Shown piece after piece: positions 29,217 through 38,568 of a stretch of DNA of 64,000 nucleotides. A program made the position numbers and the translations under genes. This DNA comes from Rhizobiaceae bacterium. Its GTDB lineage: Bacteria > Pseudomonadota > Alphaproteobacteria > Rhizobiales > Rhizobiaceae. The notes under the pieces are model-generated. The model saw nothing but the letters and a program-made list of their open reading frames with translations, did not search any database and was not told the DNA's origin. How positions within the stretch are numbered: position 1 is the first letter of the stretch; every line of letters begins with the position of its first letter. The DNA lies in contig JAEPMD010000001.1 of assembly GCA_017644105.1 (NCBI GenBank), forward strand, positions 62,001 to 126,000. Reading direction: 5' to 3'.

Positions 29217-30362
29217 GTGCTTGAGATGTCGCATAACCATTTATTGATCTCAGCATCATTGATTGTTGCAATGATGGCGGGCTTTACCGGGCTGAGTGTC
29301 ATGCAAGGCGCATCCAGCCTGAACTTGGTGGAGCGCAAGCGCGCTGTGATCATGGCAGCGATCACAATGGGCACTGGAATTTGGTCAATGCATTTCGTTG
29401 CCATGCTGGGAATGGAGCTACCCGTCCCATTCTTTTATGATGCCCTCATCACACTTGCATCGGCACTGGTTGCCATTCTTGTTGTCGGCATAGCCCTCCT
29501 CATCATGCATTTCATGCCGCGTACAACGCAGACCAAAACCGCTGCAGGTTTTATTGTCGGATCAGGTATTTTAGCGATGCACTATTTGGGCATGTATGGC
29601 ATTAAGCTCGTCCTACCAGTTTATTCAGGAATTGGAATCTTCGTTGCGATCGCAACCTCAGTCGTTCTCAGCACGAGCATGATTTTTATCGCGTATAAAG
29701 AACGTGAAAACCGAAACATCATTGGTGGCACCATTTTATTCGGTATTGCCGTCTTTATGGTGCATTTCGTCGCCATGGCCGGCACCGAATTCAAGGAGAT
29801 CAGTAATGCGTCCGTTCCTGATTTGCGCTTGAGCAATGAGGTTTTGGCTCTTGGCGTTGCCGTTGCCAGCTTTGTCATTAGTGGTGCATTTTTGCTCATG
29901 AGTGTGAGCTTACTACCGTCGGAAATGAAAGTTGAACCAGCTGAAGAGAGCACCAATACTAGCACGGAGCTTGAGACAACCCAAACTGCAGAACCGATAA
30001 AAACAGACGCTGAGCCTGAAAAAGAACTGGTTCAGATACCGTTTGAAAAGAACAACCAGACGCATTTTATCAAAGTTGAAAATATTGCAGCCATCCGCGC
30101 TGAAGGTCATTACACAATTTTATATTCCGCGGATGAAAAACATTTCTGCCCCTGGAATATATCTGAAATGAAAAAACGACTGTCTGGTCAAGGGTTCTTA
30201 CAAACCCACAGAAGCTATTTGGTGAACCCGCTTCATATCAGCAGTTTTGAGCGCACCAAGGACAATGGCTATCTACTTTTTGACCAATTTAGCTCATTTG
30301 AAAAAGTGCCAGTTAGCCGTTCAAAGCTCAACGAAGTCCGCAAAGAACTCGACTTAAGCTAA
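29217..30362 (+). CDS. Membrane MHYT-sensor / LytTR DNA-binding regulator, CoxC/CoxH-like
   Basis: This 381-aa protein is a membrane-bound transcription regulator. The N-terminal 230 residues form about seven membrane segments with three MHYT-type repeats (SMHFVAM near 57, AMHYLGM near 120, MVHFVAM near 183). MHYT domains are proposed to sense diatomic gases through bound copper. A charged linker (235-280) leads to a C-terminal LytTR domain (about 283-378; IRAEGHYTILYS, LQTHRSYLVNP). CoxC and CoxH of Oligotropha carboxidovorans have this architecture and lie in its CO dehydrogenase cluster. GTG at 29217 is preferred over ATG 29226 because GGGAG is ten bases upstream. Confidence 0.85.
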   Translation: MLEMSHNHLLISASLIVAMMAGFTGLSVMQGASSLNLVERKRAVIMAAITMGTGIWSMHFVAMLGMELPVPFFYDALITLASALVAILVVGIALLIMHFMPRTTQTKTAAGFIVGSGILAMHYLGMYGIKLVLPVYSGIGIFVAIATSVVLSTSMIFIAYKERENRNIIGGTILFGIAVFMVHFVAMAGTEFKEISNASVPDLRLSNEVLALGVAVASFVISGAFLLMSVSLLPSEMKVEPAEESTNTSTELETTQTAEPIKTDAEPEKELVQIPFEKNNQTHFIKVENIAAIRAEGHYTILYSADEKHFCPWNISEMKKRLSGQGFLQTHRSYLVNPLHISSFERTKDNGYLLFDQFSSFEKVPVSRSKLNEVRKELDLS

Positions 30363-30363
30363 A

Positions 30364-30405
30364 TCGCATAAATTCGCATTTCGTGAAATTTCTTCGCATT
30401 TCGTG
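30364..30405. promoter_or_regulatory. Direct repeats before coxM, candidate LytTR binding site
   Basis: TTCGCATTTCGTG occurs twice without change (30373-30385 and 30393-30405), 20 bases apart. A third TCGCAT core lies at 30364-30369, ten bases before the first. All three lie on the same helix face. LytTR proteins bind spaced direct repeats, and a LytTR gene ends two bases upstream. Confidence 0.65.
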
Positions 30406-30490
30406 CGGCAGCAGCGGCGCTGGAACATCAGCGGATGCATTCACATCAAGTCTCTTATTAGGTTGTTCCATCACTTAGATGGAGGAACTA

Positions 30491-31345
30491 ATGATACCCG
30501 CAGCATTTGAATATCATCGTCCTGATTCGATCGATGACGCGATCAAAATTATAACAGAGCATGGCGATGAAGCACGTGTGATCGCAGGCGGTCACAGCTT
30601 AATCCCAATGATGAAATTGCGTATGGCTGATCTATCGCATCTCGTGGATTTGCAACAAATCAGTGAACTCAAAGGCATCATCATTGAAGGTCAATCTGTC
30701 ACAATTGGTGCAATGACCACACAGCACGAACTGATCGCCCACGAAGAATTGGCGAAAGTGGCACCTATCATGACGGAGGCCGCACTTCAAATCGCCGATC
30801 CGCAAGTCAGATATATGGGAACAATTGGCGGCAATGTCGCAAATGGTGACCCCGGCAACGACATGCCAGGTTTGATGCAGTTGTTGCACGCAAGCTATAC
30901 TTTAGCCGGACCCAATGGCACACGAACAGTTCAAGCACGCGACTTTTATGAAGCCGCCTATTTCACCGCGCGCGAAGAAGAAGAAATTCTCACATCGATC
31001 ACGTTTAACTCACCAGTGGGTGGATATGCGTATGAGAAGCAAAAACGTAAAATCGGCGATTATGCAACAGCCGCAGCCGGTGTTTTGATCACTAAAGATG
31101 GTGGCACATGCAGCCATGCATCCATTGCGTTGACGAACTTGGCCGACACCCCAATCTATTGCGAAGAAGCCGTATCAATTCTAACCGGATCCGACTTAGG
31201 CGCGGGGGCCATCGAAGCCGCAACAATGGCAGCGGTGAATGCCAGCGACCCCGGCGAAGACAATCGCGGGCCCATCGAATTTAAAAAACATGCAGCAAAG
31301 GTCGTCATTCGCCGTGCTTTAGAGCGCGCGATTGAACGCGCTTAA
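30491..31345 (+). CDS. coxM: CO dehydrogenase medium (FAD) subunit
   Basis: This 284-aa flavoprotein passes electrons from the FeS subunit towards the quinone pool. FAD-binding motifs are AGGHS at residues 32-36 and TIGGN at 111-115, the same positions as in the Oligotropha CoxM. That agreement, plus GGAGG at 30481-30485, supports the ATG at 30491 over the one at 30479. It is first of the order coxM, coxS, coxL used by form I CO dehydrogenases. Confidence 0.93.
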   Translation: MIPAAFEYHRPDSIDDAIKIITEHGDEARVIAGGHSLIPMMKLRMADLSHLVDLQQISELKGIIIEGQSVTIGAMTTQHELIAHEELAKVAPIMTEAALQIADPQVRYMGTIGGNVANGDPGNDMPGLMQLLHASYTLAGPNGTRTVQARDFYEAAYFTAREEEEILTSITFNSPVGGYAYEKQKRKIGDYATAAAGVLITKDGGTCSHASIALTNLADTPIYCEEAVSILTGSDLGAGAIEAATMAAVNASDPGEDNRGPIEFKKHAAKVVIRRALERAIERA

Positions 31346-31369: not shown

Positions 31370-31861
31370 ATGTCAAAAATGCATATTAAATTAAAGGTCA
31401 ACGGCGAAGAGGTGGAAACACTTGCCGAACCTCGCGAACTGTTAATCCACGTTCTGCGCGAACGTCTTGATATCACTGGACCACATATTGGTTGCGAAAC
31501 ATCTCATTGCGGTGCTTGCACAATCGATATGGACGGAAAATCTGTCAAATCCTGCACCGTCTTTGCAGCGCAAGCCAATGGTGCAGATATCACGACGATT
31601 GAAGGTTTGGGCAATCCTGATGGGCTGCATGTGCTTCAAGAAATGTTTAAAGAACATCACGGTTTGCAATGCGGGTTCTGCACACCGGGCATGATCACAA
31701 GAGCGCATCGCCTATTGCAGGAAAATCCGGATCCTACCGAAGAAGAAGTACGTTTTGGAATGGCGGGCAATCTTTGCCGCTGCACTGGATACCAAAATAT
31801 CGTGAAATCTATTCTGGCCGCCGCGGCTGAATTAAATTCTGCAAAGGAGGCAGCACAATGA
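31370..31861 (+). CDS. coxS: CO dehydrogenase small (2Fe-2S) subunit
   Basis: This 163-aa protein carries two [2Fe-2S] clusters. The plant-ferredoxin-type set is Cys42, Cys47, Cys50 and Cys62; the second set is Cys101, Cys104, Cys136 and Cys138 (CGFC and CRC motifs). GGGAGG lies about ten bases before the ATG. It overlaps coxL by four bases. Confidence 0.95.
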
Positions 31862-34278
31862 ATGAGATGACACCTCCAAAAGAAGAACGCTCAGAAGCAC
31901 TCAAAGGTCTTGGTTGTTCTCGCAAACGCGTTGAAGACGCACGCTTTACCCAAGGTAAGGGCAATTATATCGACGATATTAAATTGCCGGGCATGCTGTT
32001 TGGTGACTTTGTGCGTTCGCCATATCCGCACGCCTATGTAAAATCAATCAATCCAGACAAGGCATTGGAAGTCCCGGGTGTCTTGGCCGTTATTACCGCC
32101 AAGGATCTCGAGCCACTCAATCTACATTGGATGCCAACACTTGCTGGCGATAAACAGATGGTTTTGGCAGATGGAAAAGTTCTTTTCCAAGGTCAAGAAG
32201 TTGCCTTTGTCGTTGCAACTGATCGTTATGCAGCGGCCGATGGCGTTGAACTGGTCGAAGTAGAATATGAAGAACTACCGCCACTCGTCGATCCATTTAA
32301 AGCAGAGATCGAAGGCGCACCTATCCTACGTGAAGATATTGCCGAAGAAAAAGAAGGTGCTCATGGTCCACGTCGGCATCCAAATCATATCTTCACGTGG
32401 GAAGCGGGTGATAAAGACGCAACTGAATCTGTGCTGGATGGCGCCGATGTTGTTGCTGAAGAAATGGTCTATTATCACCGCACGCATCCTTGCCCGCTTG
32501 AAACATGTGGCTCTGTTGCCAGCATGGATAAGGTCAACGGCAAATTAACGCTGTATGGCACATTCCAGGCGCCACATGCCGTGCGAACCGTGGCCTCATT
32601 AATCTCAGGTATTGCCGAGCATAATATTCGTGTGATCTCACCTGATATCGGTGGCGGCTTTGGTAACAAAGTAGGCGTTTATCCCGGATATGTGTGCTCT
32701 ATCGTGGCGTCAATTGTCACCGGCAAACCGGTGAAGTGGATCGAGGATCGCATTGAAAACCTCACCGCCACAGCCTTTGCCCGCGACTATTGGATGAAGG
32801 GTAAAATCTCTGCCACGAAAGAAGGCAAGATCACTGGGCTTTGGTGTCATACAACAGCTGATCATGGTGCATTTGACGCCTGCGCGGATCCGACGAAATT
32901 CCCAGCGGGTTTCATGAATATCTGCACCGGGTCTTATGATATTCCAACGGCCTATCTTGCCGTTGATGGTATCTATACCAATAAAGCGCCAGGCGGCGTT
33001 GCCTATCGTTGTTCGTTCCGGGTGACAGAAGCAGCTTACTTTATCGAACGTATGATCGAAGTTCTTGCGATCAAGCTTGATATGGATGCCGCAGAATTTC
33101 GCCGGATCAACTTCATCAAAAAAGAGCAATTCCCCTATCAATCTGCATTGGGTTGGGAATATGATTCAGGTGATTATCACACGGCTTGGGACAAAGCCCT
33201 TGATGCAGTGAACTACAAAGCACTGCGCGAAGAACAAGCAGAGCGCCTTGAAGACTTTAAAGCTGGCAAGACACGTAAACTGATGGGCATTGGCCTCACA
33301 CACTTTACCGAAATTGTTGGTGCAGGTCCGGTTAAAAACTGTGACATTTTGGGTCTTGGCATGTTTGATAGTTGCGAGATCCGCATCCATCCAACAGGGT
33401 CTGCCATTGCGCGGTTGGGCACAATTTCTCAAGGTCAGGGACATGCAACAACATTTGCGCAAATTCTAGCAAGTGAAATTGGCATCTCAGCCGATGACAT
33501 CACCCTAGAGGAAGGTGACACAGATACGGCACCTTATGGTTTGGGCACCTATGGGTCACGTTCAACACCGGTTGCCGGTGCTGCAACAGCCATGGCGGGT
33601 CGTAAGATCAGAGCCAAAGCGCAAATGATCGCGGCTTACTTGCTTGAAGTGCATGACGGTGATGTGGAATGGGATATCGATCGCTTTGTGGTGAAAGGCG
33701 CGCCTGAGCGTTTTAAAACCATGAAAGAGATTGCTTTTGCGGCTTACAACCAAGCCATTCCGGGCATTGAGCCTGGCCTTGAAGCTGTGTCCTACTATGA
33801 TCCTCCAAACATGACTTACCCATTTGGCGCTTATATTTGCGTGATGGATATTGATGTAGATACAGGCACAACCGAAATCCGCCAGTTCTATGCGCTGGAT
33901 GATTGCGGAACCCGCATCAACCCAATGATCATTGAAGGTCAGGTGCATGGTGGCCTCACCGAAGCGCTTGCCATCGCCATGGGTCAGGAAATTGCCTATG
34001 ATGAAATGGGCAATGTGAAAACCGGCTCTTTGATGGACTTCTTCATCCCGACCATGTGGGAAACACCAAACTATCAGACGGACCACACAACAACACCAAG
34101 TCCGCACCACCCAATTGGTGCCAAAGGTGTGGGTGAAAGTCCAAATGTGGGCGGTGTGCCAGCATTTTCAAATGCCGTGCACGATGCGTTCCGTGCCTTT
34201 GGTCTAACCCAATCGCATATGCCACATGATCACTGGCGTATCTGGCAAACAGCCAACAAGCTTGGTCTACACGACTAG
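31858..34278 (+). CDS. coxL: CO dehydrogenase large (Mo) subunit, form I
   Basis: This 806-aa subunit carries the Mo-Cu active site that oxidises CO to CO2. The form I signature AYRCSFR is present at residues 382-388, so the copper-binding Cys is Cys385. The catalytic Glu of GAKGVGES is Glu760. Both are offset by three from the published Oligotropha positions (Cys388 and Glu763), so the active-site loop and catalytic Glu are both in register. A GGGFGNK molybdopterin motif lies near residue 265. These features separate it from form II and from other xanthine-dehydrogenase relatives. The organism is therefore predicted to oxidise CO aerobically. Confidence 0.96.
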
Positions 34279-37809: not shown

Positions 37810-38568
37810 ATGCCCAGATTTGATCCCACCGCGAAAACGATGATCATATCATCTATAGCAACACCCAAATCTCAAAGGGATTTAGGTGGTCTAGTTTTGC
37901 GTCGGGACATTATTCTGGGCGCCGCTTTTTTGGCATGGATTTATCTCATCATCCAATCATTCCAGTTCGCAGTGGAAGGGACTGCCCAAGATCTCGGGCC
38001 GGGAATGATGATCTTTGATTGGTTATACCAACAGTCAGGCATGTTTGGCGCGTTCAGCCAGAACATCTGGTCCATATGCGTGACAAAAATTGAGGCCTGG
38101 GGAATAAGTGATTTTTCCCGCGTCTTCCTCATGTGGCAGATCATGATCATCGCAATGATGGCACCGACCTTATTGTTTCGGAAGCTTTATAATATGGAGA
38201 AAAATTACAGTTTCTCCAAATTTTCACGATTTATAGCCGGCTATCTTTTCGCTTGGTCACTGTTTTCAATCCCGATGGTTTTACTCCAATGGGGATTGCA
38301 AACAAATGGTTTACTCACCGATGGAATGATGATTGGTATACCATGGTTCAGCACAGTTATGCTTATCGCTTTAGTTGGGTTTCAACTTAATAATTGGAGA
38401 CACAAGACCAATTCCGATCAAAGCGGTTTCCAACTCGGGCTCAATTGCATTCGGACCAATTGGCCGCTCATGCTCAGCATGTTTGCCTTTGGTCTGATGA
38501 ATTTGATCTATATGGCTGTACTCACTGTGCTGATGATTGTGTTTTTAAAGGATGCACAAAAGCACTAA
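37810..38568 (+). CDS. DUF2182-like polytopic membrane protein
   Basis: This 252-aa protein has about six membrane segments. Its pattern (FLMWQIMIIAMMAP, GYLFAWSLFSI, FAFGLMNLIYMAVL) follows DUF2182 predicted metal-binding membrane proteins. The cysteine-rich loop common in that family (of LGCCW type) reads CIRTNW here, so the proposed ligands are partly lost. It is joined to the cox operon by spacing of 12 bases and is absent from the classical cox set as I know it. The function is unknown; a membrane partner for CoxG is possible. Confidence 0.65.
   Translation: MPRFDPTAKTMIISSIATPKSQRDLGGLVLRRDIILGAAFLAWIYLIIQSFQFAVEGTAQDLGPGMMIFDWLYQQSGMFGAFSQNIWSICVTKIEAWGISDFSRVFLMWQIMIIAMMAPTLLFRKLYNMEKNYSFSKFSRFIAGYLFAWSLFSIPMVLLQWGLQTNGLLTDGMMIGIPWFSTVMLIALVGFQLNNWRHKTNSDQSGFQLGLNCIRTNWPLMLSMFAFGLMNLIYMAVLTVLMIVFLKDAQKH

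Follow-up and report, generated by a model that had tools for sequence, protein, structure and literature searches.

The window, the whole 64,000-nucleotide stretch of Rhizobiaceae DNA analysed here, carries a form I CO dehydrogenase operon consisting of coxM, coxS, coxL and accessory genes. The regulator gene, at 29217-30362 on the plus strand, encodes a 381-residue CoxC orthologue in which an N-terminal MHYT domain (Pfam, 4.5e-30) is fused to a C-terminal LytTR domain (4.5e-20), the architecture of CoxC-type regulators, and like their genes it lies beside cox genes. Alignment with CoxC of Afipia carboxidovorans gives 30% identity over the whole length and shows MHFV, MHYL and VHFV as candidate MHYT-like motifs, the third without the Met; a search of solved structures yields one weak LytTR match only. 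The gene for the FAD subunit, coxM (30491-31345, plus strand; Pfam FAD_binding_5 and CO_deh_flav_C), is given a start at 30479 by the ORF finder; since most homologues align only from residue 5, at 30491, it most likely starts at the ATG there. The 2Fe-2S subunit, coxS (31370-31861, plus strand), is assigned from its place in the operon, its best NCBIfam matches being related subunits below their cut-offs. The large subunit, coxL (31858-34278, plus strand), scores 1374 bits against the form I equivalog TIGR02416 (cut-off 991) and contains AYRCSFR, in agreement with AYXCSFR, which we take to be the motif rule for form I CoxL. Directly after a coxG-like gene, a gene at 37810-38568 encodes a PpoB2 copper-chaperone domain (Pfam PF09948, 3e-22), possibly supplying copper to the CO dehydrogenase or to the sensor; tblastn at 1e-3 finds no relatives of it in the 12 kb stretches of eight relatives, the pHCG3 stretch or locus L125.

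The stop codon of the regulator ends at 30362, leaving a gap of 30363-30490 before coxM. Near the coxM end of this gap, at 30462-30488, an inverted repeat (GTTGTTCCATC/GATGGAGGAAC, 11 nt, 82%) would fold over the coxM ribosome-binding site; it is identical in locus L039 and similar in L040 and L012, and translational control at this site is possible. At the regulator end, two identical 13-mers, TTCGCATTTCGTG, occupy 30373-30385 and 30393-30405 on the plus strand, with the letters and coordinates that the sequence-only reading had given them. They are 20 bases apart from start to start and end 85 bases before the probable coxM start; within them the conserved 11-mers span 30375-30385 and 30395-30405, and their 8-bp cores, likewise 20 apart, leave 12 bp between them. 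The segment 30400-30407, within and just after repeat 2, reads TTCGTGCG and fits the published TTNNNGCN, and the core of repeat 1, TTCGTGAA, is without the GC of TTNNNGCN, a point counted against the operator reading. No other 13-mer of the window recurs exactly at a distance of 5-40 bases. Of 200 first-order Markov copies of the window, 10 contain one or more such pairs, an event of about 5%, so that the pair alone is a lead rather than a finding. Taken singly and with up to two mismatches, the 13-mer occurs 3 times against a mean of 3.87 in shuffles, and so is not enriched. As a pair with a period of 20 bases and at most three mismatches, it occurs only once in the whole 3.9 Mb genome, at 30373-30405; the version with a 21-base period has three matches elsewhere, all with three mismatches, against one in the reversed control.

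Conservation among relatives places the pair far beyond chance. The loci compared comprise 80 from named genomes, 30 from a family search and 30 from an order search (CoxC query), with a further 17 new loci from a class search, 6 plasmid loci and 5 contigs of a viral collection. Loci L010 and L011, which lie on the contigs of L039 and L040, and seven loci lacking the LytTR end were left out, as were near-identical gaps (8-mer Jaccard ≥0.3) and, from the statistics, loci without coxM within 2 kb. A complete regulator is present at 159 loci, counting that of the window; at 142 of them coxM lies no more than 600 bp further on, and most of the regulator-coxM gaps read contain CGCATTTCGTG twice at 20-21 bp. 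An 11-column matrix, applied with 20 bases of padding, was built from 68 non-redundant loci and then scored on 67 held-out ones, of which 60 exceed the 99.9th percentile of dinucleotide shuffles between regulator and form I coxM; relatedness among the loci is only partly removed, and the p-values are indicative. With periods of 19-22 allowed, these 60 loci give 20 in 38, 21 in 21 and 19 in 1; with 12-32 allowed, they give 20 (37), 21 (21) and 31 (2). The letters of the spacer vary while the 20-21 bp phase is conserved. Seven held-out loci fall below threshold (L023, L024, L035, L038, L151, L155 and L167), and all of them except L151 and L155 show TTCGTG-like repeats by eye despite their scores. 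Upstream regions of coxM paralogues served as controls, sampled as the first 40 of the 68 places listed below the form I group; not one of them reaches the threshold on either strand. In some Ruegeria loci repeat 1 begins inside the stop codon of the regulator; an earlier, 13-column matrix, for which the gap began after the stop codon, was used for the upstream core and for the placements in L084, L014 and L025 described below. On these alignments, CGCATTTCGTG is a directional repeat kept before form I coxM in Alphaproteobacteria that carry the regulator, and the window site has direct repeats with a period of about two helical turns upstream of the target gene. The sequence-only reading would have been contradicted if relatives close to the window had carried this regulator and lacked the repeats; put to this test, it was not refuted.

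A third repeat follows the pair. The match to the consensus, plotted against distance, peaks 21 bases after repeat 2 in the 96 window-like loci; in the 33 CoxC-like loci the peak lies at 19-20 bases, with other offsets (for example -22) nearly equal. This phase and the alignment locate the third copy of the window at 30415-30425 on the plus strand, where CGGCGCTGGAA is weak and agrees at 4 of 11 positions; the congener at L012 has an intact CGCATTTCGAA in its place, and the third repeat is weaker in many loci. The array is thus best read, from the aligned gaps, as three phased repeats, of which two are strong and one is eroded in the window. The erosion was counted against the operator reading, as the published CoxC operator needed all three. 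The sequence-only reading had sought its third member on the other side, in a TCGCAT ten bases before the pair. That hexamer is present at 30364-30369 on the plus strand; L039 and L040 differ there, L012 has nothing similar, and with the first matrix no conserved signal stands out at this offset in 93 + 30 loci. It is probably no part of the operator, and because it is not conserved, the proposal that it puts three cores on one face of the helix is unsupported. The broader proposal, an operator of the MHYT-LytTR regulator before coxM, gains strong comparative support and the precedent of CoxC, and loses this upstream detail.

When regulator and coxM are separated by another gene, it is coxM that the repeat accompanies. 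L084 has an intervening ORF of about 1.2 kb, with the repeats directly before coxM; in L014 (gap of about 400 bases) and L025 (about 500 bases) they are on the coxM side. A close coxM is found in 28 of 199 family genomes, and a regulator match in 27 of the 28, the exception, G110, having its coxM at a contig end. After regulators without coxM in reach, no repeats are found in the stretches scanned in L054, L060, L081, L087, L093 and L119-L122, nor in L169, and in L022 and L147 the repeats lie at the end of the available stretch. A few regulators keep repeats without an intact coxM, which makes another target possible: L126 (Sinorhizobium meliloti AK83), L032, where a 50-residue coxM-like fragment is retained, and in part L066, with one good copy. 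On the AK83 plasmid, three repeats occupy 5206-5300 of L126 after the MHYT-LytTR gene, coxM is absent, and the annotation continues with a gene for a short EAL-domain protein. A separate arrangement occurs at 2992-6207 of L093, and also in L087 and L119-L122, where phage-type genes for a portal protein and a head maturation protease come directly after the MHYT-LytTR gene (identities checked with PHROGs in L093 only). The coxM repeats are missing from this cluster, which has the look of a prophage or gene transfer agent under a gas-sensor-like regulator.

The window operator already has a characterised cousin in CoxC. CoxC, an MHYT-LytTR protein of the A. carboxidovorans OM5 membrane, occupies three direct repeats at PcoxB; CO releases it, and this requires copper (PMC11347149). 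In E. coli, PcoxB is repressed by CoxC and by its isolated LytTR domain. CoxC is the only bench-tested MHYT-LytTR regulator found in searches of an open-licence library, in which no other description of the present operator was found. The two systems share an MHYT-LytTR regulator, cox targets and the TTNNNGCN core, which sits at one constant position within the repeat in 79 of the 129 first copies and 64 of the 129 second copies. They differ in that the window site lies between regulator and coxM, has a period of 20-21 bp instead of the published 29 and 26, and combines two strong copies with an eroded third. As to the overlap with a -35 element reported for PcoxB, none is seen in the window, which shows no consensus promoter, and relatives suggest an adjacent TTG. 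Two published features are not found in the window: of the three TTNNNGCN direct repeats only the second copy fits, and in place of spacers of 18-21 bp the cores leave 12 bp, with a family period of 20-21. The common form of the repeat, TTCGTGCA, fits the RcoM1 consensus TTCNNGCA quoted in PMC11347149. In that source, the RcoM1 operator of Paraburkholderia xenovorans also consists of direct repeats before cox genes bound by a LytTR domain, and its 8-bp repeats and 12-13 bp spacers amount to the same 20-21 bp period as in the window family; RcoM1 differs in being a soluble haem sensor, not a membrane MHYT protein, and an activator, and its third copy is intact. Canonical LytTR operators, for which PMC11347149 cites 9-bp direct repeats in pairs with 10-13 bp between them, resemble the window site in their direct repeats, two-turn period and position beside a promoter; the window family departs from them in its core sequence and its tendency to three copies.

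The disagreement in period probably reflects the register of the published site. On the pHCG3 record (L124), the primers given in the paper place the published motifs at 2705, 2734 and 2760, 29 and 26 apart, and the family register gives 11-mers starting at 2688, 2709 and 2729, 21 and 20 apart. The bases altered by published mutation 1 are at and just before the start of the re-registered repeat 2, and those altered by mutation 2 are inside the re-registered repeat 3, so that either register accounts for the reported loss of binding. The re-registered array does not include mutation 3; the PcoxB3 probe, which adds the change at the third published motif, loses the residual binding of PcoxB2 (PMC11347149), an extra effect that the new register leaves unexplained. 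The PcoxB operator as published is probably out of register, with a true period of 20-21 bp rather than 26-29. In a 20 kb stretch of pHCG3 the three best sites are the coxH-coxI gap (14940, periods 20 and 22, triple score 16.6), PcoxB (16.3) and the coxC-coxM gap (5728, periods 20 and 20, 9.3). The best scores of random 20 kb stretches have a 95th percentile of 12.9 and a maximum of 24.6; PcoxB and the coxH-coxI site are above 12.9, and the coxC-coxM site is below it. The putative sites before coxM and coxI in OM5 are candidates that are new relative to the available part of PMC11347149. In the same record coxH is annotated as two overlapping ORFs (L124, 13668-14925), and is therefore frameshifted or misread there.

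The position of the array relative to the promoter bears on the direction of control. Of 129 loci, 26 have a TTG exactly 15 bases after the core of the third repeat (+15), compared with a background of 1.7%; the 26 divide into 19 of 33 CoxC-like and 7 of 96 window-like loci. At this position TTGA is found in the re-registered PcoxB and in the OM5 coxC-coxM gap, the latter among the 33; TTG is absent there from the coxH-coxI gap and from the window, where the tentative -35 position, set by the distance from the third repeat in relatives, reads ATGCAT (30435-30440, plus strand). Two beta-proteobacterial coxM loci contain three arrays, two in L259 and one in L260, with TTG at +14. Near the arrays of L259 is an annotated LytTR gene, in whose product Pfam finds a LytTR domain and no sensor domain, and which we take to be RcoM-like by size and place only; the record of L260 carries no annotation. 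No consensus sigma-70 promoter, and no clear promoter, is found in the window gap, and the loci compared show weak peaks and no clear conserved -10. These positions point to an array that adjoins the -35 element without covering it, an activator-like placement, and this RcoM-like position next to a TTG calls the pure-repressor model into question.

Taken together, the comparisons make it highly probable that the two 13-mers form the main part of an operator through which the adjacent MHYT-LytTR regulator controls coxMSL and later genes. LytTR domains would bind side by side on one DNA face, 20-21 bp corresponding to two helical turns; the MHYT domain, sensing CO at the membrane (via copper in the one case studied), would alter occupancy; and the bound array, adjoining the -35 region, would gate RNA polymerase. 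A chance or slippage duplication, or a leader RNA element, with no operator role, is scarcely credible by comparison. The exact pair does turn up in simulated windows, and folding of the gap RNA is slightly more favourable than that of shuffles (z -2.62), its strongest part being the ribosome-binding-site hairpin; the 60 held-out loci that keep the phase while the spacer letters vary already contradict this account. The repeats might instead be the operator of a different DNA-binding protein, as their following coxM rather than the regulator gene in L084 and other loci would allow. This is improbable in view of their agreement with the CoxC and RcoM consensus and period (PMC11347149), the co-occurrence of regulator and close coxM in all but one of the 28 family genomes, their absence before coxM paralogues, and their persistence next to the regulator in S. 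meliloti AK83, where coxM is absent.

Given the operator, the regulator would by precedent keep the operon off without CO, and CO would release it; repression is, on the present analysis, a little better than an even prospect, and activation, which the placement fits at least as well, has an appreciable though lesser chance. The corresponding alternative to the operator reading as a whole keeps the site and makes the regulator an activator or dual switch contacting RNA polymerase beside the -35, as RcoM does, and it is held only tentatively. It draws on the enrichment of TTG at +15 in relatives, on TTGA at the re-registered PcoxB and the OM5 coxC-coxM gap, on the three beta-proteobacterial arrays, and on RcoM1 and most LytTR regulators, which bind upstream of -35 and activate (PMC11347149). 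Against it stand the repression of PcoxB in E. coli, the ATGCAT and lack of a resolved -10 in the window, and the relatedness of the TTG loci, which leaves the p-values indicative. A wider conjecture, doubtful but worth stating, is that CoxC and RcoM, though unrelated as sensors, use the same type of coxM promoter, with CoxC contacting the polymerase and PcoxB published out of register. If true, this promoter would have three TTCNNGCA-type repeats with a 20-21 bp period and the last core 14-15 bp before a TTG -35, and CoxC would probably be an activator or dual switch in its native hosts, not a simple occluding repressor.

The analysis adds to the operator reading a precise, predictive definition, a probable correction of register, two further candidate sites in OM5 and a testable sign. 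For A. carboxidovorans, the definition supplies a corrected footprint to test and raises the number of candidate sites from one to three. Whether MHYT sensors repress or activate in response to CO can now be tested directly in tractable roseobacters. Aerobic oxidation of CO is a widespread process, and an operator so conserved and precisely defined would allow the regulon to be located in other genomes.
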